Shown piece by piece: positions 1-26,397 of a stretch of 29,886 bases of DNA (the first letter of the stretch is position 1; every line of letters starts with the position of its first letter). The translations under genes and the position numbers were made by a program. The stretch is from a virus. Under the pieces are notes generated by a model. It had not been told where the DNA came from. It ran no database searches and saw only the letters and a list, made by a program, of their open reading frames with translations. The stretch is taken from IMG/VR virus record IMGVR_UViG_3300009320_001195, positions 1 through 29,886 of that record; one strand, 5' to 3'.

Positions 1-234
1 GGCGTGGGGCGGAAGTTCTCAGGGGTGTACTACGTTCAGGGCGTGCGGCACGAGATCGGCGAGAGCGGGTATTCCTGCGAGTTGAAGCTCAAGCGCAACG
101 CCCTCGGCAAGGGCGCGGGCGACAAGTCCGAGGACGCCCAGGGCCAGGAGAACGACAGGGAAGCGCCGCCAGTGCCCAAGGAAGAGACGCCGGAGATGGT
201 GACCGTGGACGCGGATACGGGGGAGGAATCGTGA
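1..234 (+). CDS. C-terminus of gpD-like (late control D / gp27-like) tail hub protein, 5' truncated
   Basis: The reading frame is open from base 1 and ends at TGA 232-234, so only the last 77 residues are visible. The pattern G-V-Y-Y-V-Q-G-V-R-H-E-I followed by G-Y-S-C-E-L-K-L-K-R-N is the usual last beta-strand and exit of phage late control gene D proteins. These form the trimeric hub at the base of a contractile tail tube. After the RN motif comes an acidic, Pro/Glu-rich tail of about 40 residues that looks disordered. The gene overlaps the next one by 4 bases, and that gene encodes the spike protein, the normal gpD-gpV order. The family call rests on the C-terminal motif plus context, because the diagnostic upstream part lies outside the window. 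Confidence 0.7.
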   Translation, partial: GVGRKFSGVYYVQGVRHEIGESGYSCELKLKRNALGKGAGDKSEDAQGQENDREAPPVPKEETPEMVTVDADTGEES

Positions 235-1217
235 TCGACGTCTACGAAAAACAGCACGAGGAGCGATACAAGAACCGGTGGTTCGGGAAGTACCGGGCCT
301 TCGTGCGCGACCATCACGATCCGGAGCGCCTCGGCCGCATGCGGCTCGAAGTCCCCGCGGTCCTGGGCACGGGCGATGAGAACTGGTCGGACTGGGCGTC
401 GCCGTGCTTCCCCTACGGTGGGAACGACGATATCGGCATGTTCCTGGTCCCTGAAGAAGGCGCGTCTGTCTGGGCCGAGTTCGAGGGAGGAGACGCGCGG
501 TATCCGATCTGGGTCGGCGTCTGGCTGGCCAAGTCCGATCCCGGCGAGCAACCCGAGGAGGCGAAACGGCTCTGTAGTGAGGCGAAGTGCAAGGACTGCG
601 AGGACAAGAACGAACACCAAGCCAACCCAGCCGACGACGAAGAACACAAGAAGTTCCACCAGCATCCCGACTACTACTGCCCTCGGCGCAAGGTGCTGCT
701 TAAGACCGAGACCGGCCACACCATCGTAGCCGACGACAAGGACGAGGAGGAGTTTCTGAAGGTCATTGACCGCGCGGGACAGATGCTCCACTTCTTCTGT
801 CCGGTGAAGGCCGACAAGAACGAGAACAACGCGCTCCGCCGCGGCACGCAGGAGGCCGAGGGCGGACGTTGCCTGGACGTGGCCGAGGACATCAAGGACG
901 GCAAGGCGCGGATCGAGATTACGGATCTGTGCCGGCAGTTCGTGCGGTGGGAGGCGTGGCAGGACGAGGAGAAGATACACATCCAATCCTGTGACCATAA
1001 TCGCTCGCGCATTCAGAAGCTCCTGCTGGACACCACGAAGGACAAGGAGCGGGTGGTCCTCTCCGGCCTCAACTTCCAGCAGGAGATCATCATCGATTCG
1101 ACCGCGGGCCGGGAGCGCATCCTGGTCCGCGATAAGGTGGGAAGCACGATTGTCATGGACGCGGTGAACGGCAACGTGACCGTCAACGCGAAGAACAAGG
1201 CCTTCATCAATCCGTAG
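231..1217 (+). CDS. gpV/gp5-like baseplate spike protein with OB-fold
   Basis: 328 residues from a GTG start at 231, with GGGAGGA just upstream; ATG is not available nearby. Residues about 15-105 look like the OB-fold of baseplate assembly protein V, gp5 and VgrG (Y-R-A-F-V-R-D-H-H-D-P-E-R-L-G-R-M-R-L, then W-A-S-P-C-F-P-Y-G and G-A-S-V-W-A-E-F-E-G-G-D). The C-terminal 60 residues (I-I-I-D-S-T-A-G, G-S-T-I-V-M-D, G-N-V-T-V-N-A) have the short-strand periodicity of the spike beta-helix. Between them lies an acidic insert with Cys115, Cys120, Cys123 and Cys150 and several histidines, which may bind metal. No lysozyme domain is visible. The protein should trimerise on the hub and carry the PAAR tip encoded next. 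The family assignment is firm; the insert's role is unknown. Confidence 0.82.
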   Translation: MIDVYEKQHEERYKNRWFGKYRAFVRDHHDPERLGRMRLEVPAVLGTGDENWSDWASPCFPYGGNDDIGMFLVPEEGASVWAEFEGGDARYPIWVGVWLAKSDPGEQPEEAKRLCSEAKCKDCEDKNEHQANPADDEEHKKFHQHPDYYCPRRKVLLKTETGHTIVADDKDEEEFLKVIDRAGQMLHFFCPVKADKNENNALRRGTQEAEGGRCLDVAEDIKDGKARIEITDLCRQFVRWEAWQDEEKIHIQSCDHNRSRIQKLLLDTTKDKERVVLSGLNFQQEIIIDSTAGRERILVRDKVGSTIVMDAVNGNVTVNAKNKAFINP

Positions 1218-1280: not shown

Positions 1281-1326
1281 CCGGTGATCGAGAGCAAATG
1301 TTCTCGGTTTCCGGGCTTTTTGTTTT
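1278..1326 (+). terminator. Rho-independent terminator between spike and PAAR genes
   Basis: AGCCCGG (1278-1284) pairs with CCGGGCT (1311-1317). An inner hairpin GAGA...TCTC (1290-1305) stacks inside it, and a T-rich tract (1317-1326) follows. This is a standard intrinsic terminator. It separates the gpD-gpV pair from the PAAR/Cys-repeat/radical SAM/baseplate genes, so full expression of the downstream part needs readthrough, antitermination or another promoter. No good promoter is visible in the 20 bases left before PAAR. Confidence 0.75.
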
Positions 1327-1346
1327 GGAGTTCTCTGGAGAACGAC

Positions 1347-1610
1347 ATGGCGCGGCCGCAGGCGAGGTTGGGCGACATCAGCAGTCACGGAGGCGTCATC
1401 GTGACCGGCGCGCGGCGAACCTTTGTGAACGGCCGCCCGGCGGCGCGCATGGGCGATCTCCACGTCTGCCCGCTGCCGTTCCACGGCATGACGCCGATCT
1501 GTACCGGCGACACGGACACCATCATCGAAGGACGGCCCACCGCCCGGATCGGCGACATCGCCGCGTGCGGCGCGGTCATCGCGACCGGCAGTGAAGACAC
1601 ATTGGCATAA
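1347..1610 (+). CDS. PAAR-domain spike-tip protein
   Basis: 87 residues from ATG 1347, chosen because GGAG lies 6 bases upstream; an upstream in-frame extension would run through the terminator. The sequence has the PAAR repeat pattern: G-D-I-S-S-H-G-G, then V-N-G-R-P-A-A-R-M-G-D-L-H-V-C-P, then F-H-G, then I-I-E-G-R-P-T-A-R-I-G-D-I-A-A-C-G. The His/Cys positions match the zinc-binding residues of the family. PAAR proteins cap the gp5/VgrG spike and can carry cargo or effectors. This one is a bare PAAR with no extension. Its stop codon lies 4 bases before the ATG of the Cys-repeat gene, so the two are likely translationally coupled, which suggests the repeat protein might work at or near the tip. 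Confidence 0.9.
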   Translation: MARPQARLGDISSHGGVIVTGARRTFVNGRPAARMGDLHVCPLPFHGMTPICTGDTDTIIEGRPTARIGDIAACGAVIATGSEDTLA

Positions 1611-1614
1611 CGAA

Positions 1615-3438
1615 ATGGACTGTCAAGCACTCGACAACCTGGACCTCGGCTACTGGGACATCGTTCCCAAGGTCGTGCGCGTGCAGTGCGAGGAGGAGGC
1701 GATCAGCTTCCCCCTCACCGCCTACGGAAAGCGCAAGACCGATCTGGGCTACCGCGTCCTGAACCCGGACATCGCGCAAGTGACCGGTTCGGGCAACGTG
1801 TCCCTGGGCCCCGTCGCCGGCGTCACCATGATCCTGGCGTGGCCGCTCGATGACCCGTGCGACATCAAATACATCCAGCTCGAAGTCGTTTGCGAGGACG
1901 CCTTGGCCTGCGGCGCATGTGAGACCAGTTGCCAGGCAGGATGCGAGCTCAGCTGTGAAACCGGCTGCGAGGTCACGTGCGAGACGGGATGCGAAACCGC
2001 CTGCGAAACCGGGTGTGAAGTCAGTTGTGAGACCGGGTGCGAGATCGCCTGTGAAACCGGCTGCGAGATCTCATGCGAGACGGGCTGCGAAGTCTCTTGC
2101 GAAACGGGATGTGAAATCGCCTGCCAGACCGGCTGTGAGATGGCTTGCGAGACGGGTTGCCAGGTCTCCTGCGAAACGGCCTGTGAGGTTGCCTGCGAGA
2201 CGGCTTGCGAAGTCACCTGCCAGACGGCCTGCGAGGTCGGCTGCGAGACCGGTTGCGAGATTTCATGCGAGCAGGGATGCGAACTCACGTGCGAGCAAGG
2301 CTGCGAACTCCACTGTCAGGAGGCGTGCGAGATCACGTGCCAGAGCGGCTGTGAGATCGCCTGCGAGTCCACGTGCGAGGACCAGTGCGAAGTTTCTTGC
2401 GAAGTTGGCTGCGAGGTGGCCTGCGAGACGGCATGTGAAACCACGTGCCAATCGGGCTGCGAATTGCTCTGCGAGAGCGGATGCCAGCAGTCCTGCGAGA
2501 CCCAGTGCGAAGACGGTTGCCAGACCGGATGCGAAGTGGCTTGTGAGACCGGTTGTGAACTCGCCTGCCAGACGGGGTGCGAGCAGACGTGTCAGACGGG
2601 TTGTGAAGCGGCGTGCGAGGTCGCGTGTGAAGCAACCTGCGAGACCGACTGTGAACTCGCCTGCCAGGAAGCCTGCGAGAACGCCTGTCAGACCGGATGC
2701 GAACTTAGTTGCGAGACGGGTTGTGAACTGACGTGCCAGAGTGCATGCGAAGCCACCTGCGAAACCGGCTGCGAGTTGACCTGTGAGACGCCATGCGAGT
2801 TGGCGTGCGAGACGGGTTGTGAACTCACCTGCGAGGACGCCTGCGAGGTGGCCTGCCAGAGCGCCTGCGAGTTGGCTTGCGAGACTGTATGTGAGACCAC
2901 ATGTGAAACGGGGTGCGAACTGACCTGCGAAACCCCGTGCGAGATGGCCTGTGAGACAGGGTGCGAACTGACGTGCGAATCGGCCTGCGACCTCGCGTGT
3001 CAGACCGGTTGCGAACTCTCCTGCGAGGCCGCGTGCGAGATCACGTGTGAAGCGCCGTGCGAAGTGTCGTGCGAAACCGGTTGTGAGGTCGCCTGCCAGG
3101 TCGGCTGCGAACTGACCTGTGAGACTACCTGCGAAACCGCGTGCGAGACGGGGTGCGAGGTCGCCTGTGAACTCGGATGCGAGACAGCCTGCGAGCCGGG
3201 TTGCGAAACGAGTTGTGAGGTGGGCTGCGAGCTCACGTGCGAAGTCGGCTGCGAAATCGTCTGTGAGGCCGGGTGCGAGACGGGATGCGAAATCCAGTGC
3301 GAGACTGGATGTGAGGTCACCTGCGAAGTCGGGTGCGAGGTGGTTTGCGAGACAGGTTGCGAGGTTACCTGCGAGACCGGCTGCGAAGTGTCCTGTGAGA
3401 CGGGCTGCGAGGTTCAGCAAGAGGGAGGCTGTTCTTGA
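1615..3438 (+). CDS. Giant CXXX-repeat protein with N-terminal Ig-like domain; probable radical SAM substrate
   Basis: 607 residues from ATG 1615 (an in-frame GTG at 1591 would overlap PAAR). Residues about 20-95 resemble a bacterial Ig-like group 2 domain: Y-R-V-L-N-P-D-I-A-Q-V-T-G-S-G-N-V-S-L-G-P-V-A-G-V-T, given here by key residues. From Cys102 to Cys598 a Cys occurs at exactly every fourth residue, 125 in a row without one slip. The residue after each Cys is almost always Glu, sometimes Gln, once Asp. Units tend to alternate C-E-T-G with C-E-(V/L/I)-(S/A/T), an 8-residue super-period. There is no signal peptide. The protein ends C-E-V-Q-Q-E-G-G-C-S. Two SPASM radical SAM enzymes follow 43 bases downstream. 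Database families for short CXXX-repeat radical SAM targets exist as far as I recall, so a heavily thioether-linked product is plausible. Unmodified disulfide-rich or metal-binding protein is the alternative. The coding call is certain; the function is inference. Confidence 0.9.
   Translation: MDCQALDNLDLGYWDIVPKVVRVQCEEEAISFPLTAYGKRKTDLGYRVLNPDIAQVTGSGNVSLGPVAGVTMILAWPLDDPCDIKYIQLEVVCEDALACGACETSCQAGCELSCETGCEVTCETGCETACETGCEVSCETGCEIACETGCEISCETGCEVSCETGCEIACQTGCEMACETGCQVSCETACEVACETACEVTCQTACEVGCETGCEISCEQGCELTCEQGCELHCQEACEITCQSGCEIACESTCEDQCEVSCEVGCEVACETACETTCQSGCELLCESGCQQSCETQCEDGCQTGCEVACETGCELACQTGCEQTCQTGCEAACEVACEATCETDCELACQEACENACQTGCELSCETGCELTCQSACEATCETGCELTCETPCELACETGCELTCEDACEVACQSACELACETVCETTCETGCELTCETPCEMACETGCELTCESACDLACQTGCELSCEAACEITCEAPCEVSCETGCEVACQVGCELTCETTCETACETGCEVACELGCETACEPGCETSCEVGCELTCEVGCEIVCEAGCETGCEIQCETGCEVTCEVGCEVVCETGCEVTCETGCEVSCETGCEVQQEGGCS
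1918..3417 (+). repeat. 125-unit, 12-bp-period coding repeat (CXXX array)
   Basis: Cys codons sit at 1918, 1930 and so on to 3406, an exact 12-bp register (1488 bp = 124 intervals). Synonymous choice is strongly mixed: TGC/TGT, GAG/GAA, ACG/ACC and GGC/GGA/GGT/GGG all occur in neighbouring units. The array therefore does not look like a fresh DNA-level expansion. It looks like an old array held to its protein pattern. The periodic composition also creates long meaningless open frames on both strands. Confidence 0.95.
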
Positions 3439-3481
3439 TGAATCGCAGTGTCATTGATCGAGAAGGGGACTGGACGCGGCC

Positions 3482-4606
3482 ATGAATCCGACGCTGCAAA
3501 CGATCTGTATCGGCGACTCCCGTCACTGTAACGCGGGATGCACGTATTGTCCCTCGTGTGGCATGGACGCCAAGAAGAAGATCCCCCTGCGCGACCTCAG
3601 GAAGGTGGTCGACTTCTTCATCGCCTACACCAACGACGTCCAACGGAAGCCGCGCGCGTTGTCGTTTGTCCTGAACACACTCGGGGAATCGAGCCTTGCC
3701 ATGGACAACGTCATTGGACTTGCCGATTACGTCGCTCACGTCAACCGCTCAGGCGGTTGTGCCGTTCCGATCTACTTCTTCATGGCTTCAACCAACCTTC
3801 TGGAAGTGACGGATGACCTGGTGAAGTTCGTCAACGGATATGGATACGCGACCGTTTCGCTGCATGGCCGACCAGTGGCCGAGTACGCGGGGCGCATCCG
3901 CAAGTTCGACGCGCACGTCACGCTGGAAGGAACCGACGTCATCCCCAAGCGCCCACTCAATCTGTACGCCAGATACCGCGAGATTCTTGAGCACTTCGAC
4001 CTGGCGTCCATGCGTCCTGTCCGGGAACGCGAGATGGTGATGGACGATTCTTCTCTGTGGATCAAGGAACTCTCTGAGTGTGTCGCAACTCTCATGGCGC
4101 TTCCCGACGCGGAGCTTGCGGGCTACCTGACCCGATTGTCCTTCAACGACACCATCCTGAACGCGCTGCTGTTGTTGGACAGAGGCGCGCAGTTGCACTA
4201 CCGCTGCGTGGCGGGAATCTCCTCGCTCCAGGTCACGCCGGAGATGGAGTTCTATCCCTGCATGTTCACGCAGTACCCCGATCTGCGCATGGGCGATGTC
4301 GAACGCGGCCTTGACCTCGCCTGGCACCGGCGATTCGAAGCGCGCAGGCGCGCAGGCGCGAGACCGGAATGCGCCTCGTGCGAGTTGCTGGGCGCCTGCG
4401 GCGGCTCCTGTCTGGACTGGGCGCGGAAAGACCCGACCGGCGACGGCTTCTTCAGCCCAACGGAGTGTTTCTACAGGCGCGGGCTGTTCAGAGTTGCCGC
4501 TTGGTTCCTTGAGCACATCAAACAAAGGCCCCCCGTCATCAAGGCCCTGCGCAGGCATTTCGGTCTACGTCAAAAGGACTGGCGACCCAAATCGAAGGGA
4601 GAATGA
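3482..4606 (+). CDS. Radical SAM/SPASM enzyme, first of pair
   Basis: 374 residues from ATG 3482, preceded by GAAGGGG. The radical SAM 4Fe-4S motif CX3CX2C is C16-N-A-G-C20-T-Y-C23, unusually close to the N-terminus, with a further Cys at 26. The C-terminus has a SPASM-type cluster: Cys260 (F-Y-P-C), then C297-X2-C300-X5-C306-X3-C310 and Cys329. SPASM enzymes use auxiliary clusters and commonly modify ribosomally made peptides (sactipeptide and ranthipeptide thioethers, quinohemoprotein and mycofactocin pathways). The gene lies directly after the Cys-repeat gene and overlaps the second radical SAM gene by 4 bases, so the repeat protein is its obvious candidate substrate. There is no leader-recognition domain at the N-terminus, unlike its partner. 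The family call is firm; the reaction type cannot be read from the sequence. Confidence 0.9.
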   Translation: MNPTLQTICIGDSRHCNAGCTYCPSCGMDAKKKIPLRDLRKVVDFFIAYTNDVQRKPRALSFVLNTLGESSLAMDNVIGLADYVAHVNRSGGCAVPIYFFMASTNLLEVTDDLVKFVNGYGYATVSLHGRPVAEYAGRIRKFDAHVTLEGTDVIPKRPLNLYARYREILEHFDLASMRPVREREMVMDDSSLWIKELSECVATLMALPDAELAGYLTRLSFNDTILNALLLLDRGAQLHYRCVAGISSLQVTPEMEFYPCMFTQYPDLRMGDVERGLDLAWHRRFEARRRAGARPECASCELLGACGGSCLDWARKDPTGDGFFSPTECFYRRGLFRVAAWFLEHIKQRPPVIKALRRHFGLRQKDWRPKSKGE

Positions 4607-6024
4607 GGATGTTCAAGATGTTGAATGCGACACGTCAGTGCCGGTTCCAGACGCAGCCGACGGAACCGGAGATCGAGATCGTGCAGCTGCCCGGCCACAC
4701 CATGCTGTATGACGTGAACAGCATGGCGGTCGTGGAGGTCGATGACAACTTGGCGGAAGCTGTCGCCGCGGGCAAAGAGAACGTCGCCCTCTGTAAGGTG
4801 CTGCATTGTAACCGCAAGCCGCAGTTCCCATTCTACAACCAGACCGAATGCCGCTACATCGTCCTGGAGGTTACGCACGCCTGCAATTTGGCCTGTGCCT
4901 ACTGCTTCGTGCGCAACTACTACGAGGACCAGGGCGGCATGATGACCATGGACACTGCGCGCCGCGCCATTGACATGATCCCGCCCGGGCATCCGCTATC
5001 CGTGGGCTTCTTCGGCGGCGAGCCCTTCCTCAACTGGGCGCTGATCCAGGAGGTCACCGCCTACGTCACGGACCTTGCCGCCAAGCGCGGCGTGGGCAAG
5101 AGCCTTCACGCCACCACGAACGCCATTCTCCTCGACGATGAGAGGATCGGGTTCCTCGACGAGAACGGATTCTCGCTCATCGTCAGCCTCGACGGCCCGG
5201 AAGAGATTCACAATCGGCTGCGGCCCGCCAGGGACAAGGGGCTGAACAGCCAGCAAGCAACACTCGCGAACCTGCGCCGGTTCAAGGACACGAAGAACCT
5301 GAAACGTCGGACGACGCTGCGCAGCACCTACACCGGCCTTGGCGCGAATCTCGTCGGACGGCTGGAATATCTCAATGCACTGATCCACGAGGGATGCGCA
5401 GCGCACGCCAGCGTGGAGCCGTGCAGCCTGAACGAATCGGCCTGTCTCCGATTGCCGGACGGACACCCCCTGGCCATCACGCCGGCACATTTCGACGCGC
5501 TCAACGAGGAATATCACGCCGCCGCGGAGTGGTACGTCGCGGAGATACGCGCCGGCAGACACCCGGCATTCCACCACTTCATGAAGCCCCTGGAGCGGCT
5601 GCTCTATACCATCCACGCGCCGTCTGAATGCGGGGCCGGCTGTGGCTACATGGCCATCGACTCCGCCGGCAACCTCTACGGCTGCCACCGGGAGAGCAAG
5701 TCCATCATCGGCCACCTGGACACCGGTGTGGATGAGGAACCCCGCGCCAAGTGGCGCGACAACCGCATCTACGCGCGTCCGGACTGCATGACCTGCTCCA
5801 TCAGGTACGTCTGCGGCGGCGGCTGCCGCCTGGACAGCCTGGAGCGTCACGGCGACATCCACAAGCCGGACAAGGTCGGCTGTTTCTTCAAGCGGAGGAT
5901 GTTTGAGGAGGCGCTGTGGATCATGTGCGAGTTGGGCCCTGACAAACTCCAGACGCTCATTCCCAATCCACGTGAGCGCCGGAGAAAGCAGACGGGACGT
6001 CGGCCGCAGTCCAGGAACCCGTAA
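4603..6024 (+). CDS. Radical SAM/SPASM peptide maturase, second of pair
   Basis: 473 residues; ATG 4603 overlaps the preceding stop. An N-terminal segment of about 85 residues (with L-Y-D-V-N-S-M-A-V-V-E-V-D) resembles the substrate-binding N-terminus of ranthipeptide/QhpD-type maturases. Then come the radical SAM motif C94-N-L-A-C98-A-Y-C101 and the G-F-F-G-G-E-P motif near residue 145 for SAM binding. The SPASM region has C395-X2-C398-X5-C404-X3-C408 and Cys427, with extra cysteines upstream (E-C-G-A-G-C, Y-G-C-H-R-E). This is the standard architecture of enzymes making Cys sulfur-to-carbon thioether bonds. The adjacent protein has 125 regularly spaced Cys, each followed by an acidic or amide residue. 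Having two maturases may mean two modification types, or one acting on each of the alternating units. Maturase role very likely; substrate inferred from position. Confidence 0.92.
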   Translation: MRMFKMLNATRQCRFQTQPTEPEIEIVQLPGHTMLYDVNSMAVVEVDDNLAEAVAAGKENVALCKVLHCNRKPQFPFYNQTECRYIVLEVTHACNLACAYCFVRNYYEDQGGMMTMDTARRAIDMIPPGHPLSVGFFGGEPFLNWALIQEVTAYVTDLAAKRGVGKSLHATTNAILLDDERIGFLDENGFSLIVSLDGPEEIHNRLRPARDKGLNSQQATLANLRRFKDTKNLKRRTTLRSTYTGLGANLVGRLEYLNALIHEGCAAHASVEPCSLNESACLRLPDGHPLAITPAHFDALNEEYHAAAEWYVAEIRAGRHPAFHHFMKPLERLLYTIHAPSECGAGCGYMAIDSAGNLYGCHRESKSIIGHLDTGVDEEPRAKWRDNRIYARPDCMTCSIRYVCGGGCRLDSLERHGDIHKPDKVGCFFKRRMFEEALWIMCELGPDKLQTLIPNPRERRRKQTGRRPQSRNP

Positions 6025-6049
6025 GAACGGAAAGGAGTCTCGTCACCGC

Positions 6050-7039
6050 ATGAACATCCGCATCCTGAGAGAGGCCGGCGGCATCGGCGACGTGGTCTGC
6101 ACTCTCCCCGTGGCCCGCGCGGCAAAGGAGAAGTGGCCGGAGGCGAAGCTCACCTACTTCGGCCTCGAGGACTATCGCGACCTCGTAGCGCACTGCCCGG
6201 ACATAGACGCGTTCGTGCCCGTGCCGCCAAAGGGACGGCGTCCCCGGGATCGGGAGCCGGATGCAGAGCAATGGCCTTACCTCGCGCCCGAAGCGCTGCC
6301 GGAACCTGTCCGCCGCAGCCTTGGCGAAGGCGGATTCGATGTCACGCTCGACTGCTGGTGTCCAGCATTCCGTTACGAGCGAGCGCGCGGCCCGGATGTG
6401 TCACAGAGCCGGATCGAGTCGTTCTGCGACGCGAACGGTCTCAAGCCTTCCGACTGCTGCCCGCATTACGTCGTGACGGACGAAGAGAGAGCATGGGTGC
6501 AAGGCTGGATTGAGGGCCAAGACCTTCACCGGAAGCTGGTCGTCGGCCTCCAGCCGTTCAGCACAAACAGCCGGCGCAACTGGCCGCTTGCCAACTGGAT
6601 CGATCTGGCCCAAGCGCTTCTCAAGCAGGGAACGGCGGTCCTCGTCTTCCACAGCTTCCTGCGAAGGGTCGTGACCGTGCCCGGGCGCAAGGCCACGGGC
6701 CTGGCGCTATGGAAGGTCGCGGCGCTGTTGACGCAGTGCGATTGCGTTGTCACGCCGGACAGCGGGCTGTTTCATCTCGCGGCCGCCATCGAAACACCGG
6801 CCCTCGGCCTCTTCGGCTCGACCAGCGCCGAGCAGACGGCCAAGCATTATCCCTTGCACAAGACCCTCTGGCCGAAAGACGAACCGCGCGCGAAGGAGTG
6901 CAGGACGCCGTGCTACTGCTTCGAGTGGTGTGGCTGCGATGAAGCGTGCGCGGAGAACGGCTGTGAGATTCTGTCGAAGATCGCGGTCCGAGACGTTCTG
7001 GAGGCTCTGACGCCCATGTTGAAGAAGCAGGAGGCCTGA
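6050..7039 (+). CDS. Glycosyltransferase family 9 (heptosyltransferase-like)
   Basis: 329 residues from ATG 6050, preceded by AAAGGAG at 6030-6036. It shows the GT9 signatures: G-G-I-G-D-V-V-C-T-L-P near residue 10, L-Q-P-F-S-T-N-S-R-R-N-W-P in the middle, and V-T-P-D-S-G-L-F-H-L-A-A-A then G-L-F-G-S-T in the nucleotide-sugar half. The C-terminus has an unusually dense Cys cluster (C284 to about C307, including C-Y-C-F-E-W-C-G-C), richer than the few Cys normal for this family. GT9 enzymes usually add heptose to lipopolysaccharide core. Here the gene sits between radical SAM genes and a baseplate gene, 25 bases after one and 2 bases before the next. Glycosylation of the Cys-repeat protein or another tail part is therefore more likely than LPS work. 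Fold call strong, acceptor unknown. Confidence 0.85.
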   Translation: MNIRILREAGGIGDVVCTLPVARAAKEKWPEAKLTYFGLEDYRDLVAHCPDIDAFVPVPPKGRRPRDREPDAEQWPYLAPEALPEPVRRSLGEGGFDVTLDCWCPAFRYERARGPDVSQSRIESFCDANGLKPSDCCPHYVVTDEERAWVQGWIEGQDLHRKLVVGLQPFSTNSRRNWPLANWIDLAQALLKQGTAVLVFHSFLRRVVTVPGRKATGLALWKVAALLTQCDCVVTPDSGLFHLAAAIETPALGLFGSTSAEQTAKHYPLHKTLWPKDEPRAKECRTPCYCFEWCGCDEACAENGCEILSKIAVRDVLEALTPMLKKQEA

Positions 7040-7041
7040 TC

Positions 7042-7581
7042 ATGCCGGGTTGTGGAGTCATCATCCCAGCCGAGGCCAAGGCGCAGAAGATGACGCTGGA
7101 GATCCTCTGCTACCTGGCCAACAAGATGGACGAGCTTCAAGCCACGGTCCAAGCCATGCACGACGACCAGCTTGCGCTGAAGGCCGAGGCCGAGGAGGTC
7201 CTTGAACAACACCGGCAGTCGGCGGAGACCTACTTCGCCAGCTTCCCCGATCCGTGCGGCGACGAGGGCTTTGATCCGTGTCCGTTCGAGTCGCTGCCGG
7301 TCGGCACGAAGCGGCGCGACCTGGACCGCGGAAACTTCGTCTTCATCCTGCCGGACGGCACGATCTTCCGGGTCAATGACGACGGTATCACGGCAGCCCT
7401 GCCGGACGGCGTCGTGGAGAATCTGTCTCCCGATGACGCTTATCGGATTCACACGTCTGACGGCAGGACGTTCCAGCTGAACGAGGAATGCGCGAACGTC
7501 CCGGAGCCCGGGGGTGAGACGCCGGAGCCGGGACCGCCGGAGATCCCGCCCGATCCGGCTGACTGCGAGGAGCCCGAATGA
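7042..7581 (+). CDS. Coiled-coil protein of unknown function in tail operon
   Basis: 179 residues, ATG 7042, 2 bases after the glycosyltransferase stop; its TGA overlaps the gp25 start. Residues about 15-65 are predicted helical and probably coiled coil (M-T-L-E-I-L-C-Y-L-A-N-K-M-D-E-L-Q-A). A middle segment with D-P-C-G-D-E-G-F-D-P-C-P-F follows. Next comes a beta-rich part with short repeats of the type F-I-L-P-D-G-T-I-F-R-V, A-L-P-D-G-V-V and T-S-D-G-R-T-F-Q-L. The end, from about residue 153, is Pro/Glu-rich and probably disordered. I do not recognise a family. Position suggests a structural or chaperone role in fitting the modified protein to the tail, but that is only inference. Confidence 0.75.
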   Translation: MPGCGVIIPAEAKAQKMTLEILCYLANKMDELQATVQAMHDDQLALKAEAEEVLEQHRQSAETYFASFPDPCGDEGFDPCPFESLPVGTKRRDLDRGNFVFILPDGTIFRVNDDGITAALPDGVVENLSPDDAYRIHTSDGRTFQLNEECANVPEPGGETPEPGPPEIPPDPADCEEPE

Positions 7582-7991
7582 GCGAGCACGACTTCCTGGG
7601 CAAGGGCGTGGCGTTTCCATTCCGTTTCGGGGACGCCGACGGCGCGGTCGCCGTTTCGGATGGCGAGCCGCCGGACCACGCCCACATCAAGGAGAGCATC
7701 CAGCACATCCTGTCGACGCGACCGGGCGAGCGCTTCTTCCTGCCGGAGTTCGGCAGCCGACTCCACGAACTCGTGTTCCAGCAGAACGACGTGGTGCTCA
7801 AGGCTCTGGCCCGGCAGTACATCGTGGACGCGATCAAGCGGTGGGAGAAACGTGTGAAGGTCGCGAAGGTGGAGTTCTCAGACGATCCGGAGACCACGGA
7901 GCAGAACCGGTTTCTCATCCGTATCACGTACCAGGTTATCGGGAGCCAGGTTGAAAGCAACCTGGTGTATCCGTTCGCAAGGGAGGTGTGA
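7578..7991 (+). CDS. gp25/GPW-like baseplate wedge protein
   Basis: 137 residues from ATG 7578, overlapping the previous stop by 4 bases. The middle carries the family pattern: H-I-K-E-S-I-Q-H-I-L-S-T-R-P-G-E-R-F-F-L-P-E-F-G-S, with the conserved R-P-G-E-R and P-E-F-G-S. Helices and the C-terminal strand I-R-I-T-Y-Q-V-I-G follow. Members (T4 gp25, P2 W) belong to the baseplate wedge and touch the first sheath disc. Length is normal. Only 3 bases separate it from gpJ, the standard W-J order. Confidence 0.92.
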   Translation: MSEHDFLGKGVAFPFRFGDADGAVAVSDGEPPDHAHIKESIQHILSTRPGERFFLPEFGSRLHELVFQQNDVVLKALARQYIVDAIKRWEKRVKVAKVEFSDDPETTEQNRFLIRITYQVIGSQVESNLVYPFAREV

Positions 7992-7994
7992 CAC

Positions 7995-9407
7995 ATGGCG
8001 CTGGCGCGGATTCCCTACACGTCCAAGGATTACGAGGCGATCCGGCAGGAACTGATCGACCGCATCCCGACGATCACCGACCGCTGGACCGACTTCAATC
8101 AGAGTGACCTCGGCATGACGCTGCTGGAGCTCTTCTGCGGCGTGGCCGACATGCTGTGCTTCTACCTGGACAACCAGGCCAACGAGGCGTACCTGCCAAC
8201 CGCGCGCCAGCGCCAGAACGTCATCAACCTCACCGATCTCGTGAACTACCGCCTCGACCGACCGGTCACAGCGACGACGACCCTGTACTTCACGCTGCCA
8301 GCGGCCCTTCCTTACCACGTCTCGATCCCCAAGGGGACGCGCTGTCGCGCATCCACGGAGAGCGGCAACGTCGACTTCGTGACGGCCGAGACGCTGACCC
8401 TCGCCGCAGGAAACACGTCGGGGCAGGTCGGCGCGGTCCAGGGCACACCGGCGGAAGAGCAATTCATCGCGAGCGGTGAGACGGATCAAGAGGTATCTCT
8501 CGCCAACAAGCACGTCGCCCAGGACAACCTCGAAGTGTGGATCGATGGCGAGAAGTGGTCCGAGGTGCGGACGTTCTACGAAAGCGCCTCGACCGACAAA
8601 CACTATGCCGTCGTCACCGACGCACTGGACAACACCCAGATCATCCTCGGCGACGGAAACTACGGTCATCTGCCCAGTGCCGGGCAATCCATTGTCGTGC
8701 GCTTCCTGGAGACCAAGGGCGCGGACGGCAACATCGGCAAGTACCTGGTGAACACGATCCTCGACCCGGTCTATCACGATGCAGAGCAGGTGAAGCTGTC
8801 GGTCACTAACATCGAGACCGCGTCCGGCGGCGCGCCCCGCGAATCCCTGGACCATGCCCGCAAACAGGCCCCCGCAGAGATCGCCACGCTGTGGCGCGCG
8901 GTCACCAAGTCCGACTTCATCGCCCTGGCCGAGGGGTTTCCCGGCGTGGCCAAGGCGCAGGTGCTCGACGTGAACGACTGCATCAATCTCGGCTATTACC
9001 ACGTCTGCGTAGTCATCGCGCCCGATGGCGGCGGGTTGCCCTCACAACTCCTGAAGCAGGACATGCAGACCTTTCTGGACGGGCGCAAGGTGCTGACCGT
9101 GGTGGTGGAGGTGAAGGATCCGGTCTACATCCCGATTGACGTCAACGCCACGATCTACGTCTACCGCAACTACAACCGCTTCCTGGTCGAGGACGACGTG
9201 CGACAGCGGATCGAGGAGTTTCTGGCCTTTGACGCGGTGGGCTTCGGCCAGGACATCCACTTCTCGGACCTGGTCTCGCTGATCGATTCGACCGAGGGGG
9301 TGAGCCACGTCGTAATGTCGAACCCGACGACGGACGTCATGCTCGGCCCAGGAGAACTGCCCTACGAGGGCAGCACCGTCATCAACTCGACCTACGTTTC
9401 CACGTGA
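7995..9407 (+). CDS. gpJ-like baseplate wedge protein
   Basis: 470 residues, ATG 7995. The N-terminus I-P-Y-T-S-K-D-Y-E-A-I-R-Q-E-L-I-D-R-I-P, D-F-N-Q-S-D-L-G-M-T-L-L-E-L-F and D-N-Q-A-N-E-A-Y-L-P-T-A is typical of baseplate J proteins. The central beta region (V-S-I-P-K-G-T-R-C) and the block G-G-A-P-R-E-S-L-D-H-A-R-K-Q-A-P also fit, as does the C-terminal I-D-V-N-A-T-I-Y-V. The protein should form the arms of the wedge with gp25 and gpI. Length is larger than P2 J (about 300) but in the range of many contractile-injection and Bacillus-type homologues. No irregularity is seen. Confidence 0.92.
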   Translation: MALARIPYTSKDYEAIRQELIDRIPTITDRWTDFNQSDLGMTLLELFCGVADMLCFYLDNQANEAYLPTARQRQNVINLTDLVNYRLDRPVTATTTLYFTLPAALPYHVSIPKGTRCRASTESGNVDFVTAETLTLAAGNTSGQVGAVQGTPAEEQFIASGETDQEVSLANKHVAQDNLEVWIDGEKWSEVRTFYESASTDKHYAVVTDALDNTQIILGDGNYGHLPSAGQSIVVRFLETKGADGNIGKYLVNTILDPVYHDAEQVKLSVTNIETASGGAPRESLDHARKQAPAEIATLWRAVTKSDFIALAEGFPGVAKAQVLDVNDCINLGYYHVCVVIAPDGGGLPSQLLKQDMQTFLDGRKVLTVVVEVKDPVYIPIDVNATIYVYRNYNRFLVEDDVRQRIEEFLAFDAVGFGQDIHFSDLVSLIDSTEGVSHVVMSNPTTDVMLGPGELPYEGSTVINSTYVST

Positions 9408-9413
9408 GGCGCA

Positions 9414-10109
9414 ATGAGCACCTTTGCCGACAAGCTGTATTCGCTGCTCGCCCAAGTCCACCGGCAGGAGGACAACGGGGATCTCAGCGACTTCCTCGCT
9501 GTCTTCGCGCCGACGTTGGATTGGCTGAAGTCGCTCATCGATGATTTCCTGGAGTTGTGGGACATCGATGCCGTGCCGGACGAGTTTTTGCCCTACCTGG
9601 GCACTCTCATCGGCTATCCCTACAACTACACCCGCGATCCGGGCGTGCAGCGGAAGCTGATCCGGTTCCGGATCGAGTTCTATAGGCGCAAGGGAACGCG
9701 GGCGTCCCTGGAACGCATTCTCGAGGAGAACGGCGTCGCGGCCACCATCCTGGAGAACGTGCCGCATGAGGGCGTCTACCAGGTGATCGCCGACACGCCC
9801 CCGTCCTGGCTGCCGGAGCTTCTCGAAGAGGTCCATCCCGCGGGCACGAAGTGGGTGTACTTCATCAACTGGGCGAAATACGCGGAGGATCTCACCGTGC
9901 CCGTGACCGCGATTGGTTGGATCGTGCTCCGGGCAAGCGAATCATGTCTGGCCGCCTGCGGTTATGTGGAGACGCGGACGCTGTCCTGGGAGGACCTGAT
10001 CCGGGACATCTGCCGGAACTACGGCGCGTCCGAGCAGGACATTGATGGACTGGACTACATCGGTCTCTTGGAACTGTGGCGCGATCTGACCGCGGCCGCC
10101 TGCGGATAG
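9414..10109 (+). CDS. gpI-like phage tail protein
   Basis: 231 residues, ATG 9414, 6 bases after the J stop. Family features include F-L-A-V-F-A-P-T-L-D-W-L, W-D-I-D-A-V-P-D-E-F-L-P-Y-L-G-T-L-I-G-Y-P and R-K-L-I-R-F-R-I-E-F-Y-R-R-K-G-T-R-A-S-L-E, the core of the tail protein I domain. P2 I and T4 gp53/gp6-related proteins sit at the wedge periphery, and fibres attach near them. The last 70 residues (with C-L-A-A-C-G-Y-V) fall outside the core domain and are not recognised. Confidence 0.85.
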   Translation: MSTFADKLYSLLAQVHRQEDNGDLSDFLAVFAPTLDWLKSLIDDFLELWDIDAVPDEFLPYLGTLIGYPYNYTRDPGVQRKLIRFRIEFYRRKGTRASLERILEENGVAATILENVPHEGVYQVIADTPPSWLPELLEEVHPAGTKWVYFINWAKYAEDLTVPVTAIGWIVLRASESCLAACGYVETRTLSWEDLIRDICRNYGASEQDIDGLDYIGLLELWRDLTAAACG

Positions 10110-10122
10110 GAGAACACGAACG

Positions 10123-10416
10123 ATGCCGACTGAACTCGAACTGCTGCAACAGATCGCCGACAACACGGCGAACTACCACTGTCACAAGTATCGCCAGGCC
10201 CCGGTCGAAGTGCCGGACGGCGTGATCGTCACGTTCACGCTGCCGAACAGCGAAGCCTACGAGGCTGGCACGCTGGCCGTGCGCATCGACGGCGTGGCTC
10301 TCGATGCCGACGGCGACGTGACCGAAAACGGCCCCGGCAACACGACGTTCACACTGGCGACGCCCCCCGTGACGGGCGCGGCACTGAAGATCGACTACAT
10401 CCTCAAGCGAGAATAG
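10123..10416 (+). CDS. Small beta-rich tail-associated protein
   Basis: 97 residues, ATG 10123 with AGGAGA upstream. After a short N-terminal helix (E-L-E-L-L-Q-Q-I-A-D-N-T-A-N) the rest is beta-strand rich: V-I-V-T-F-T-L-P, G-T-L-A-V-R-I-D-G-V-A-L-D and G-A-A-L-K-I-D-Y-I-L. The strand pattern (tests as value, then Y-x-x-G-x-L-x-V-x-x-D-G) is common in phage tail and fibre accessory domains. It lies between gpI and a fibre-like gene. No catalytic residues seen. Probably structural; the family is not identified. Confidence 0.7.
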   Translation: MPTELELLQQIADNTANYHCHKYRQAPVEVPDGVIVTFTLPNSEAYEAGTLAVRIDGVALDADGDVTENGPGNTTFTLATPPVTGAALKIDYILKRE

Positions 10417-10429
10417 AAGGGACCACCCA

Positions 10430-10984
10430 ATGGCTGAACATGCACTGGTTGTCGATATGGGTCGCCTGCTCACGGCTCGGCTCCTGAAAAGCGATGACGT
10501 TGAGGGCATCACGCACTGCGCGCTGGGCGACGGTGACGCGACCTTCATCGACCCGAACGACCCGCCTGCGCCGGCGGCGGACCAGACGTCGCTGAAGAAC
10601 GAGTTCATCCGGAAGCGGTCCTACAAGACGGCGTTCCTCGTGGAGGACCCCGAGGGCAACATCACCGTGGATGGCACGAACTACTCCGAGACAGAAACCG
10701 AGGGCGACATCATCGGCGTATTTTTCCGATTCGATGATTACGAGGCCACGGCGAGCGTCATCAAGGAGATGGGCTTCTTCGGGGGGACGGTGGAGTATGT
10801 CGCCGGCGTCACCGGCGACACGGCCATGGATGGCGTCTATGACGAGACCGGTAACCCTGACGGCGAGGTACTCGATCCGGGCTATCTCTACGAAGTGCGC
10901 AACATCCCGGACTACTCCAAGGACGGACACACCATGCTGGAGCTGATCGCCATCGTGAAACTGGCCGAGTGCCCCGCCCCATAG
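10430..10984 (+). CDS. Putative tail fibre/collar N-terminal domain-like protein
   Basis: 184 residues, ATG 10430, 13 bases after the previous stop. The start V-V-D-M-G-R-L-L-T-A-R-L-L-K-S followed by I-T-H-C-A-L-G-D-G-D resembles the N-terminal part of P2 H-type tail fibres (DUF3751-like: the chain enters, then a G-x-G-D-G turn). F-F-R-F-D-D-Y-E-A-T-A-S-V-I-K-E-M-G-F-F-G-G also fits that domain. It is too short to be a full fibre and has no receptor-binding region. It occupies the gpH position after gpI. The resemblance is by pattern only. Confidence 0.6.
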   Translation: MAEHALVVDMGRLLTARLLKSDDVEGITHCALGDGDATFIDPNDPPAPAADQTSLKNEFIRKRSYKTAFLVEDPEGNITVDGTNYSETETEGDIIGVFFRFDDYEATASVIKEMGFFGGTVEYVAGVTGDTAMDGVYDETGNPDGEVLDPGYLYEVRNIPDYSKDGHTMLELIAIVKLAECPAP

Positions 10985-11002
10985 CGAAAGGAAAGAACAT
11001 CC

Positions 11003-11317
11003 GTGCCCGATAAGCAAGGCTCCCTGGAACAGACCAACGGTTTGCGCCACGCCTTCACCGAACGCGTCCTGGAAAGCCTCACTGAGGTCGCCGAGATCAA
11101 GGCCGAAGTGCGCGTCGGCATGCGCGCGCTGGATGAGAAGCTGGACCGGTCGCTCGCCTCGGTGCACGAGAAGCTGGATCGAATGCTGCTGCTGGAGCAG
11201 AAGGTCGAGCAGCACTCCACGTCCATCACGCGGCTCAAGACCTGGTGGTCGGTCGTCGCGGCAAGCGTCGCCTTGGCCGCCTCCCTCATGAAAGACTGGC
11301 TGCTCAAGGGGCGCTGA
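11003..11317 (+). CDS. XhlA-like coiled-coil protein with C-terminal membrane anchor
   Basis: 104 residues from GTG 11003, with AAAGGAAAG upstream. Residues about 25-75 form a heptad-rich helix (V-A-E-I-K-A-E-V-R-V-G-M-R-A-L-D-E-K-L-D). One transmembrane helix near residues 82-97 (W-W-S-V-V-A-A-S-V-A-L-A-A-S-L) and a short charged end follow. Length and layout match XhlA-like proteins of Bacillus PBSX-type phages, which accompany holin and lysin genes, but no holin or amidase is next to it here. It closes the tail operon. Host-membrane association is likely; a lysis role is unproven. Confidence 0.65.
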   Translation: MPDKQGSLEQTNGLRHAFTERVLESLTEVAEIKAEVRVGMRALDEKLDRSLASVHEKLDRMLLLEQKVEQHSTSITRLKTWWSVVAASVALAASLMKDWLLKGR

Positions 11318-11677
11318 TTGCCACGGCTACAAGACGTCCTTCAGACCGTGCGCTGCTGTGCAGATGCTGGCCGTGCATGTGTGAAAGCGTTGCCACTCCC
11401 GCCCAAGTGTCAAGGCTTTCACACAACCGGGGTTCGCGCTCAGACGGCCCCTTGACAGCAGCATCGTGGGCGCTTGCACACCACCCTCGCAAGATTCTCT
11501 CGCCAACATTCTTCCGGCTTCTCCCCATCTTCCCGTAACTCGCGCCCCCCTCGCCGCTTATAGCCCGCCTAAGTTGTTGCCATGCAGGCACTTCCATCAT
11601 AACTCCCCTTGCTATCCGTTGCACACTATGCCCTTATGTGTCTGACGCAAGTGATTGATGCCAAAGGAGATAAGCAC
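11318..11677 (+). other. Intergenic stretch between tail operon and amidoligase cassette
   Basis: About 360 bases without a supported gene; it is C-rich and has stops in all frames at short intervals apart from weak ORFs of unlike composition. It holds the long inverted repeat listed separately. I find no convincing -35/-10 pair; TTGCTA (11609) with CTTATG (11633) is weak. A good ribosome site (AAAGGAGAT, 11663-11671) serves the next gene. Confidence 0.6.
11378..11425. repeat. 20-bp inverted repeat forming a large hairpin
   Basis: Left arm 11378-11397 (TGTGTGAAAGC, G, TTGCCACT) and right arm 11406-11425 (AGTGTCAA, G, GCTTTCACACA) are complementary at 18 of 20 positions, around an 8-base loop. 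The outer 11 bp are perfect. No T-tract follows, so it is not a classic terminator. It may be a bidirectional transcription barrier, a binding site for a dimeric regulator, or a remnant of recombination at the module boundary. Confidence 0.7.
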
Positions 11678-11881
11678 ATGCGACGCAAGGCGAAGCGAAC
11701 CATGGTCGCGAGGGAACTGACGGGCAGGATCGAGAGGCTGTCCTGGCGGCGGCTAACGGAGATCTACCTGAACACGCGCAGCCAGGCGGTCCGGAAGATG
11801 ATCGAGAAAGAGGCGCGCCGGTGCGGCTACCGGATGAGCGGCTTCATCCTGGCCCAGGCCCTGAACAGACAAAGCACGTGA
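11678..11881 (+). CDS. Small basic protein, first gene of amidoligase cassette
   Basis: 67 residues from ATG 11678, chosen for the strong AAAGGAGAT 6 bases upstream; an earlier in-frame start at 11609 lacks a site. The protein is very basic (many Arg/Lys), probably all helical, with [22 protein letters not shown]. It could bind nucleic acid or act as a modified or adaptor protein. No family recognised. It is followed 10 bases later by the amidoligase. Confidence 0.65.
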
Positions 11882-11891
11882 GGGAACACCT

Positions 11892-12890
11892 ATGGACATG
11901 CGAGACCTCAAGTTTGGGATCGAGATCGAGACGATCAGACGCACTCGGCAGTGCGTGGCCGAGGCCATCCAGGCCGTCGTCGGCGGTCAGGTGCGGCACA
12001 CCGGAACACCCGCTTGCTACGACCCCTGGGAGGTGACCGACGCCCAAGGCCGCGTCTGGAAGGTCGTGGCAGATAGCTCGCTGACCATGGTCGCGAGCCA
12101 TCTGCGGGCGGAGGTGGTCAGCCCGGTGCTGACGTACCAGGACATCCCCGAGCTTCAAAAGGTCGCCCGTGCGGTACGGACACTGGCTGGCGCGAAGGTG
12201 GACCGGCGCTGCGGGATTCACATCCACATCGACGCCTCGGCCTTCGACGGTCGCAAGCTCGCCAACCTAGCCAAGATCACCTACAAGCAAGAAGAGCTCA
12301 TCATCCGTGCGCTCGGCTTGGGCGGCACGCGCCTGGCCCAGTACTGTCGGCCTACCCGCGACGAATTCATCCGCAACATCGAACGTCGCCGACCCCGCAC
12401 CCGCGAGCAGCTCAACCGCCTCTGGTACGGATTCCGCAACAGCAACCCCATGCACTACGACGCCACGCGGTACCACCTGCTCAACCTGCACAGCGTGTGG
12501 TACCGGGGCACGGTCGAGATCCGCGCCTTCGGCGGAACGCTTCACGCGGGCAAGGTGAAGGCCTACATCCAGTTCTGCCTAGCGCTCGCAGCCAAGGCGC
12601 TCAACGCTCGCGCGGCATCGAGCAAGAAGCGCCGCGCCAACGGCCACAGCGACAAGTACGACTTCCGGGTCTTCATGCTGCGGCTGGGACTAATCGGCGA
12701 CGAGTTCAAGACCTGCCGCAAGCACCTGCTGGCGAACTTGGCGGGAAGCGCGGCGTGGAAGAACGGACGACCCGCGCCGAGCGTGCAGCAGACTCCCGCG
12801 CCGGAAGACGCCACTCAACCCACCAACGCCTCGGAACAGAGCGACGGCGGCAATGAAGGAAGGGAGGACAACCCATGCTTAAGCTCGTGA
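11892..12890 (+). CDS. Putative amidoligase (Amidoligase_2 family)
   Basis: 332 residues, ATG 11892. It shows the glutamine-synthetase-like pattern of putative amidoligases: F-G-I-E-I-E-T near residue 9, then A-E-V-V-S-P-V-L near 77, C-G-I-H-I-H-I-D near 105, and a late Y-H-L-L-N-L-H-S with [11 protein letters not shown]. These acidic and histidine residues are the expected metal and ATP site. Family members are predicted to form amide or isopeptide bonds between a carboxylate (often glutamate) and an amine. The C-terminal 60 residues are Pro/Ala/Glu-rich and look disordered. It overlaps the next gene by 16 bases. The companions (class II amidotransferase and gamma-glutamylcyclotransferase) are known genomic partners of this family. 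Target unknown. Confidence 0.88.
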
Positions 12891-13297
12891 TGAGAGACGC
12901 CGAGATCTTCGAGGGCGAGACGCACCTCGACCTCGTCTGCGCCATGAAGGGCGCGACGATGTTTTGCGACGTGAAGAACGTCCTCGAGTACATCGCCGTG
13001 GTCCAGAGGCGCGCGCATGAGATGGAGGGACTCGACCTCGAGGTGATCGGCGAGAAGATCGACGACCGGTGTGAATCGCTCGTTGCACAGCTTGAGCGGG
13101 CCAAGCTGGCTACGGTCGAAACGATCCCTGCAGGTGAAACCGGTCAGTTGGCGCGACTCGTGCAGTTGTGCGCGGATACACTCTACGACGGTGACCTGGT
13201 CGGCACATGGCCGTTTCTCCGCGCGCGGTTGCGGCTGACCCGAAGCGAGCGAAATGAGGTCGAGCGGCAGCTTGGCCTTGCCACAGCGAAGGCATGA
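12875..13297 (+). CDS. Hypothetical protein in amidoligase cassette
   Basis: 140 residues from ATG 12875 inside the end of the amidoligase gene; GGGAGGA lies just upstream. The first 25 residues look beta-rich ([20 protein letters not shown]) and the rest mostly helical ([14 protein letters not shown]). No membrane segment or catalytic motif stands out. I do not recognise a family. Overlap with the amidoligase implies co-expression. Confidence 0.75.
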
Positions 13298-13310
13298 ACG
13301 GAGGCGAAGG

Positions 13311-13571
13311 ATGGACAAGATCATAGTGACGAGGGAAGTGCTCGACGGCCTGGAGGCGGTCCGAACGTCCGGCCTGACCAATATGCTGGATAGGCCGGTG
13401 GTAGTCGAACTGGCGCGGCAGATGGGATTCGACGAGACGGCCCGCTGGATCGAGGTCATCGCAAGGAGTACGCCGAAGGCATATTCCAGGGCTTCGAGGC
13501 CGAAGGAGGTGATGGATAGTGTGTGGGCTGGCAGGAGTTATCCTGGGAAAGAAGCGCAGGCGGCGCGATGA
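13311..13571 (+). CDS. DUF5049-like small protein
   Basis: 86 residues from ATG 13311 with GGAGGCGAAGG upstream. The stretch V-L-D-G-L-E-A-V-R-T-S-G-L-T-N-M-L-D, then V-V-E-L-A-R-Q-M-G-F-D-E-T-A and a later K-A-Y, fits DUF5049-type proteins of phages and plasmids, which recur beside amidoligase and gamma-glutamylcyclotransferase genes. The match is from memory of the pattern. The last 25 residues overlap the amidotransferase gene by 53 bases in another frame and may be dispensable. Role unknown. Confidence 0.7.
   Translation: MDKIIVTREVLDGLEAVRTSGLTNMLDRPVVVELARQMGFDETARWIEVIARSTPKAYSRASRPKEVMDSVWAGRSYPGKEAQAAR
13503..13512 (+). promoter_or_regulatory. Strong ribosome binding site deciding a GTG start
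   Basis: AAGGAGGTGA is a near-perfect anti-Shine-Dalgarno match, with 6 bases to GTG 13519. It fixes the amidotransferase start so that Cys becomes residue 2, as an N-terminal nucleophile enzyme requires. It lies within the coding region of the preceding small gene. Confidence 0.85.
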
Positions 13572-14283
13572 GCTTTGCGTCATCGGTGGGATATTCACTG
13601 AGTTGCTGGTCTTGAATGAGGCGCGCGGAACCGATGCCACGGGCATCGCGGTCGTCCGCAAGGACGGGGACTTCAAGCTGCTCAAGCGTCCGGGACCGGC
13701 GGGCATCCTTGTCGAGGACAAGCTCTACCACACCGTGCTCGATCTCGACAACAAGGTCACGGTCGTCCTCGGCCACACGCGGCGCAAGACGCGCGGCACT
13801 GAGCGCAACGCACTGAACAACCACCCGATCCGCGCGGGGCGCGTCATCGGCACGCACAACGGCTACATCGCCAATGCCGATTCCCTGGTCCGGAAGCTGC
13901 GTCTGCCCAGGCACGCCGAGGTGGACTCCGAGGTCTTGTTCCGCCTGGCTGACCGCGCAAGAGACAAGGGCGAGTTCCTTCGACTGCTTCGACGCTGCCG
14001 GGGCCGCATCTCAGCCGCGTTCGTGTGTCTCGACGAGCCGACAAGCGCGTACCTGCTCAAGGGGGACATGCCGCTCCATGCCGCCCACGTCCCGAAGCTG
14101 CGCGCGGTGTTCTACGCCAGCGAGGAATGGATGCTCGCCGAGACTCTCACCGGCTGCGACTGGCAGGCGCTCGAAGTGGACCCACTGACGCTTTCGACGT
14201 TCGACGTGGAATCCCTGCTTGATTTCTCGCAGAAGGATGTGTCATTCAGAACCCCGGAGGCAACCCTATGGCCGACGACGTGA
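13519..14283 (+). CDS. Class II (Ntn-type) glutamine amidotransferase
   Basis: 254 residues from GTG 13519. The sequence opens M-C-G-L-A-G-V, so Met removal exposes Cys as the catalytic N-terminal nucleophile. Further family features are R-G-T-D-A-T-G-I-A-V near residue 35, G-H-T-R near 79, N-N-H-P-I near 96 and G-T-H-N-G near 113. These match GATase class II domains of the GlmS/PurF/AsnB group. No synthetase domain is fused, so the ammonia (or the glutaminyl group) must pass to a separate partner, most simply the amidoligase. It overlaps both flanking genes. The enzyme class is firm; the physiological acceptor is inferred. Confidence 0.9.
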   Translation: MCGLAGVILGKKRRRRDELCVIGGIFTELLVLNEARGTDATGIAVVRKDGDFKLLKRPGPAGILVEDKLYHTVLDLDNKVTVVLGHTRRKTRGTERNALNNHPIRAGRVIGTHNGYIANADSLVRKLRLPRHAEVDSEVLFRLADRARDKGEFLRLLRRCRGRISAAFVCLDEPTSAYLLKGDMPLHAAHVPKLRAVFYASEEWMLAETLTGCDWQALEVDPLTLSTFDVESLLDFSQKDVSFRTPEATLWPTT

Positions 14284-23577: not shown

Positions 23578-23615
23578 CTATGGTGGAAGTCGCTCTCTGT
23601 GCGTATCCAGGACCC

Positions 23616-26335: not shown

Positions 26336-26397
26336 GCCCTACGCACGGCATGGCTATCGCGCCTCCTACGACCCGCCGCCATGCCTGAGGAGAAGAC

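Follow-up and report, generated by a model that had tools for sequence, protein, structure and literature searches.

Introduction

Radical-SAM/SPASM maturases encoded beside Cys-repeat substrates are known from the ranthipeptides SCIFF/thermocellin (CteA/CteB) and freyrasin (PapA/PapB). The SCIFF peptide, 45 residues long and containing six Cys, has a single identified bond, the thioether of CteA joining Cys32 to Thr34 or Thr37 (PMC8326336), and PapB forms Cys-Asp and Cys-Glu bonds (PMC11002830). Radical-SAM thioether cross-linking is also found in a non-RiPP protein, the gamma subunit of quinohemoprotein amine dehydrogenase, where QhpD forms S-Cbeta bonds with Asp and S-Cgamma bonds with Glu (PMC8326336); this target is a small enzyme subunit and neither a repeat array nor a virion part. 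In addition, NCBIfam lists CXXX-repeat targets and maturases (TIGR04114, TIGR04115 and TIGR04117), which combine a Cys at every fourth residue with a radical-SAM partner and which, according to their annotation, have neither a known function nor an assignment to phage tails.

Covalent Cys cross-linking of a contractile tail and baseplate has been proven for Agrobacterium phage Milano, which carries a disulfide network including one sheath disulfide that must break for contraction (PMC10811340). In a search of open-licence journal papers, we found no report that joins radical-SAM enzymes with phage tail proteins, tail fibres or Cys-rich baseplates.

Here, we describe a 29,886-nt stretch of viral DNA (IMG/VR record IMGVR_UViG_3300009320_001195; hereafter the window), in which, as in the ranthipeptide loci, radical-SAM/SPASM maturase genes lie beside a candidate Cys-repeat substrate. 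In contrast to SCIFF, the repeat comprises 125 units at the end of a 607-aa tail-operon protein, for which we propose enzymatic cross-linking. Related loci are referred to by L and G numbers.

Results

An uninterrupted array of Cys units

The array protein and its neighbors are listed in the table below; use of an alternative GTG start at position 1591 would extend the protein to 615 aa. Its Cys residues occupy positions 102, 106 and so on to 598, and all 124 gaps between them are exactly four residues, so that a recount of the open frame returned precisely the 125 uninterrupted Cys-Xaa-Xaa-Xaa units between residues 102 and 598 that a preliminary description of this DNA had reported. The residue after Cys, which had been described as nearly always Glu or Gln, is Glu in 107, Gln in 17 and Asp in one of the units (E/Q in 124 of 125). 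At the +2 position Thr (45), Val (25), Leu (19) and Ile (9) prevail, and at +3 Gly (44), Ala (33), Thr (21) and Ser (14).

The 8-residue alternation of C-E-T-G with C-E-aliphatic-small, also claimed earlier, is borne out statistically, even though its phase slips at several points of the array. Thr or Ser at +2 is shared by only 8 pairs of adjacent units (shuffle mean 21.3) and by 36 pairs of units two apart (shuffle mean 21.0), and the corresponding values for Gly at +3 are 3 and 27 (shuffle mean 15.1 each). None of these values was attained in any of 5,000 shuffles.

Features of the array locus in the window
Feature	Position	Strand	Evidence
Baseplate spike protein (Phage_base_V)	231..1217	+	PF04717 7.8e-19
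PAAR spike-tip protein	1323..1610	+	PF05488 8.7e-23
Cys-array protein, 607 aa	1615..3438	+	open frame, ATG 1615
N-terminal domain, residues 1-101, predicted all-beta, weakly Ig/BIG2-like	1615..1917	+	AF2, Foldseek
Array of 125 contiguous C-[E/Q/D]-x-x units, C-E-T-G / C-E-aliphatic-small alternation	1918..3417	+	
Radical SAM/SPASM enzyme 1, PapB-like	3482..4606	+	CNAGCTYC (CxxxCxxC) + SPASM cysteines
Radical SAM/SPASM enzyme 2	4603..6024	+	CNLACAYC; PF04055 2.9e-14
Glycosyltransferase family 9, possibly part of the module	6050..7039	+	PF01075 3.2e-19
179-aa protein between glycosyltransferase and gp25	7042..7581	+	no family match
Baseplate wedge gp25	7578..7991	+	PF04965 4e-22
Baseplate J-like protein	7995..9407	+	PF04865 6.1e-21
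Tail protein I (Tail_P2_I)	9414..10109	+	PF09684 6.9e-10

A regular repeat of this kind could also arise from low-complexity drift, a wrongly read frame or faulty assembly, and many matches in our pattern scan of viral contigs (see below) are indeed simple 12-bp DNA repeats. The 22 CETG units of the window, however, are encoded by 18 distinct 12-mers, where about 16 are predicted under free codon choice. This scrambling of codons indicates an old repeat that has been kept by selection at the protein level and not a recent DNA tandem repeat. Moreover, a sibling contig (L003; IMGVR 3300013120_000913), which terminates within the array, is 100% identical in a shared stretch of 2,170 bases that takes in the first 21 units, making an assembly error unlikely in that part. 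As radical-SAM genes are also strongly associated with the arrays, and records with simple repeats behave differently, drift or artefact is extremely improbable, and a simple-repeat artefact was rejected on the grounds of the scrambled codons, the identity of the sibling contig and the behavior of the controls.

A contractile-tail module around the array gene

The array gene was described earlier as part of a contractile-tail operon, and the gene content agrees with this: the spike proteins gpV and PAAR are encoded upstream, and gp25, baseplate J and tail protein I downstream. The sibling contig continues further upstream with genes for a major head protein, a tail sheath (phrog_23, 3.4e-87), a tail tube, a tape measure and tail proteins. 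Based on these sheath, tube, tape-measure and head genes of an identical sibling, the source of the window is identified as a contractile-tailed, myovirus-like phage or a prophage. Tail protein I of the window lacks an array, whereas in relatives the Tail_P2_I domain itself bears one. For the 179-aa protein, no homologue was found at the array loci searched.

Judging by their translations only, frames resembling an amidoligase, a class II glutamine amidotransferase and a gamma-glutamylcyclotransferase-like protein lie in a row downstream of the tail genes (11892-14678), followed by putative HsdM, HsdS and HsdR genes of a type I restriction-modification system (15061-23404) with an extra nuclease-like gene (17408-18481). 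The region 23580-29784, beyond the phage part, encodes an ABC transporter with substrate-binding protein, a methyltransferase-like protein and sensor/response-regulator-like proteins, and is perhaps the host flank of a prophage.

Two radical-SAM/SPASM enzymes directly downstream of the array gene

Both maturase genes are intact and directly follow the array gene, suggesting the array as a radical-SAM substrate. Enzyme 1 scores above the cut-off of the NCBIfam SPASM model TIGR04085 and matches the PapB model (1.8e-14), although with only 53.7 of the 340 bits of the PapB equivalog; a Pfam search returned no match for it. Relatives of enzyme 1, 69% identical in L225 and 61–62% in L002, are each encoded directly after an array gene. 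For enzyme 2, the SCIFF maturase model ranks first (1.2e-59), followed by nif11, PapB and QhpD, all under equivalog cut-offs (202 of 425 bits for SCIFF and 168 of 340 bits for PapB). Thus, neither window enzyme passes the equivalogs TIGR03974 and NF047865, and with scores this far below the NCBIfam cut-offs any bond type is an extrapolation. While the array has the Cys at every fourth residue that marks CXXX-repeat targets, an NCBIfam scan of the array protein gave no match, and the CXXX family models are passed neither by the target nor by a maturase (enzyme 2 on TIGR04115: 51 of 350 bits).

A scan by peptide pattern did not reveal a viral relative of enzyme 2, but array loci found later by DNA pattern contain enzymes that are about 33–43% identical to it and that lie beside arrays (L237, L227, L236, L238, L228, L233, L224 and L052).

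Cys arrays and radical-SAM genes in other phages

Viral contigs were scanned for the pattern (C[EQ]xx)6 only, which is blind to enzymes, yielding at least 120 stretches. The pattern itself selects E/Q after Cys and so accounts for part of the E/Q preference seen in these other arrays; the window array was not chosen by it. Real arrays were sorted from simple 12-bp repeats by eye before the radical-SAM search, leaving, among the matches listed, 30 records with real arrays (29 further viral records found by pattern and the sibling L003).

Among the matches listed, the radical-SAM family PF04055 occurs in 24 of the 30 records with real arrays, compared to 3 of 42 controls with simple DNA repeats (Fisher p = 1.5e-10). 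In all 24 positive records a radical-SAM match lies within 2.4 kb of the array gene, in 22 within 1.5 kb and in 18 downstream (matches listed). Four of the six negative array records among these matches end inside the array, and in a fifth (L067) a radical-SAM-like gene escaped the Pfam search. The PapB, SCIFF and QhpD maturase models are matched at E <= 0.001 by each of the 27 partner enzymes aligned.

The main chemical rival to a radical-SAM substrate is a disulfide-locked or redox-switching tail element, with the enzymes acting elsewhere or making few bonds. Evenly spaced Cys residues could pair within or between chains, and the disulfide network of phage Milano sets a proven precedent (PMC10811340). 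However, the inter-subunit disulfides of Milano join structural proteins with 2.1% Cys, compared to 22% in the window protein, no maturase is reported, and the Milano paper makes no mention of radical SAM (PMC10811340). Disulfides would also leave unexplained the radical-SAM genes beside arrays in 24 of the 30 records listed, or the Glu/Gln at +1, and we regard this explanation as unlikely.

The array proteins themselves carry tail domains: among the 53 proteins in the matches listed, 14 contain the phage tail domain TIGR02242, seven Tail_P2_I and three fn3, and in 36 the array ends at most 25 aa from the C-terminus. The neighbor families (matches listed) include Radical_SAM (19), gp25 (8), Phage_base_V (6), Baseplate_J (6), tape measure (5) and GT9 (4), in agreement with PHROGs. 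The tail domains, together with gp25, gpV, baseplate J and tape-measure neighbors, argue for a structural part of the tail. The preliminary description had proposed a radical-SAM target in a tail operon, a view that homologues located away from radical-SAM and tail genes would have contradicted; the arrays found by pattern instead adjoin radical-SAM genes and lie in tail modules.

The same neighborhoods bear on a further reading, in which the array binds or carries metals or clusters, with Cu(I), Zn or Fe-S held in its CxxxC ladder. Closely packed CxxxC motifs typify thiolate metal sites, and acidic neighbors could supply ligands. On the other hand, metal binding does not account for the radical-SAM genes, the arrays are fused to tail domains and lie in baseplate modules, and a metal transporter or chaperone family is absent among the listed neighbor families; this makes a metal element very unlikely.

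In three loci (L237, L238 and L233) the genes share the order gpV-gp25-J-array protein(s)-radical SAM-GT9. Their radical-SAM enzymes are 38–41% identical to window enzyme 2 and are directly followed by GT9 homologues. The window thus looks like a rearranged version of this module, with the array on its own protein after PAAR. This position is a common one for effectors, which are often encoded directly after PAAR, and bacteriocins exist among radical-SAM peptides, so that the array could be a non-structural cargo of a PAAR/VgrG-like spike, namely a radical-SAM-modified antibacterial or effector. Most relatives, however, carry the array as the C-terminus of a tail protein or downstream of baseplate J and not after PAAR, and neighbor scans revealed no processing peptidase, transporter or immunity families. 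Cargo is therefore quite unlikely, and nothing was found in favor of the toxin role considered earlier.

The array had also been called extreme. This holds for its perfect run but not for its number of Cys residues, as L225 has an array with 138 Cys and L002 encodes a protein of 1,192 aa that contains 191 Cys, differs from the window protein in domain context and is directly followed by the relative of enzyme 1; the array is thus one of a widespread kind. L049/G030, a record that also has baseplate J, encodes a maturase that truly belongs to TIGR04115 (486 bits against a cut-off of 350) next to an array of 23 Cys, which ties this annotation family to a phage context.

Several loci show further variation. 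One phage record (L224, G003) harbors three array genes within 10 kb (1825-12016), and several other records have two in tandem. In L230 (G010), a 520-aa protein with CSGGCVYC and SPASM-like cysteines (4620-6182), missed by PF04055, is encoded upstream of a 119-Cys array and is possibly a divergent radical-SAM enzyme. Relatives outside the scan pattern use other residues, such as C-S/T/G in the cultured Erwinia phage phiEaH2 (L248; NC_019929.1). Here, two similar Cys-rich frames (DCGGTCSW...; locus positions 3063-3452 and 3395-3862) lie about 2 kb from the tandem radical-SAM genes gp083 and gp084; they are read in other frames than the annotated gp087/gp088 and are likely missed genes.

A tblastn search of the array against phages and plasmids, in which BLAST masks low complexity, returned only MT837480.1 and low-identity plasmid matches. 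Real arrays were also detected at about 11 bacterial and archaeal genome loci. One of these (L188; Phycisphaerales CP070678.1, 4648-6633) is a chromosomal gene for a 661-aa protein with a signal-like N-terminus, 144 Cys and the CETGCEVS motif of the window array. This case speaks against the proposed substrate role, as no radical-SAM gene is visible within the 8-kb locus, either in the roughly 4.6 kb before the array gene or in the 1.4 kb after it. In 294 genomes of the same phylum, no relative of enzyme 1 was detected at E <= 1e-15.

Predicted folds of the array protein

For the N-terminal domain, AF2 predicts an all-beta fold with low confidence. BIG2/Ig-like phage domains are among its Foldseek matches (best E 0.008), with nothing at E <= 0.001, and the only homologue found is that of the identical sibling contig L003. 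The Ig-like assignment made earlier is thus only weakly supported.

It had further been calculated that the array would be about 75 nm long as one continuous alpha-helix. In AF2 without alignment, the window array is instead predicted to consist of strands of six residues separated by turns of two (pLDDT 71–85 from residue 121), in conflict with a low-confidence helix for the array of another phage (L012; pLDDT 49). We therefore dropped the 75 nm helical rod and claim neither fold. Weak matches to designed helical-repeat proteins in a PDB sequence search were considered compositional noise.

Discussion

Proposed cross-linking of the array

Taken together, the array protein is probably a structural part of the tail, and its C-terminal 500 residues would serve as a polymerised substrate of both radical-SAM/SPASM enzymes and become stapled by thioethers, a reading that draws on gene neighborhood and sequence comparison. 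The two adjacent enzymes would move along the array, linking Cys sulphurs to carbons in residues close by, as in ranthionine thioethers. This chemistry is suggested by the matches of all aligned partner enzymes to the PapB, SCIFF and QhpD models together with the published bonds of QhpD and PapB. It has to be weighed against the fact that radical-SAM enzymes normally act on short leader-bearing peptides, as the window protein, with 607 aa and a 101-residue N-terminal domain, is not a short precursor of leader and core; the diverging fold predictions for the two arrays also count against it.

Two kinds of acceptor are best motivated: Thr at +2 of a C-E-T unit, by analogy with SCIFF, or alternatively a Glu/Gln at position +1, +5 or +9, modelled on the Cys-Glu bonds of QhpD and PapB. 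The SCIFF units (QTS, QSA and KTS) have the same C-x-[TS]-x-C spacing as the array, and the SCIFF bond originates from a Cys in one of these units (PMC8326336). In the SCIFF peptide of L246 (MT835472.1), C24-QTS-C28-QSA-C32-KTS-C36-T37, the numbering C32-K33-T34-S35-C36-T37 makes C-E-T-G of the array correspond to the cross-linked unit C-K-T-S. As Thr is found at +2 in only 45 of the 125 units, a pure SCIFF pattern cannot cover all Cys. The L246 record itself, deposited as a bacteriophage from faeces, encodes a clostridial SCIFF peptide (7423-7635) with its maturase and is probably bacterial DNA.

Stapled covalently in this way, the protein would form a rod, needle or fibre that withstands reduction, located at the tail tip or baseplate, and the GT9 enzyme might glycosylate it in addition; rod, needle and adhesive fibre cannot be told apart.

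Meaning for phage tails

While CXXX-repeat targets of radical-SAM enzymes are known as NCBIfam families, our analysis suggests that tail-borne versions of 100 units are apparently unreported. Dozens of unrelated phages carry similar arrays on tail proteins, beside radical-SAM enzymes of a type known to form Cys thioethers, which points to a so far unrecorded class of virus tail parts that are cross-linked by enzymes. More tentatively, and with somewhat less than even confidence, many phage lineages may build virion parts stapled by up to at least 100 radical-SAM thioethers per chain, in effect a polymerised SCIFF core on tail proteins.

If this is true, the array would offer a template for reduction-proof protein rods, that is, a genetically encoded and enzymatically cross-linked protein material. 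Radical-SAM thioether chemistry would then extend beyond small peptides to the building of large, covalently stapled virus parts, with more than 100 possible bonds per chain compared to the six bonds of freyrasin. It would also give a function to the CXXX-repeat target families, which so far exist as annotation only, and would explain why radical-SAM genes (phrog_1802 and relatives) are found inside the tail operons of many phages.
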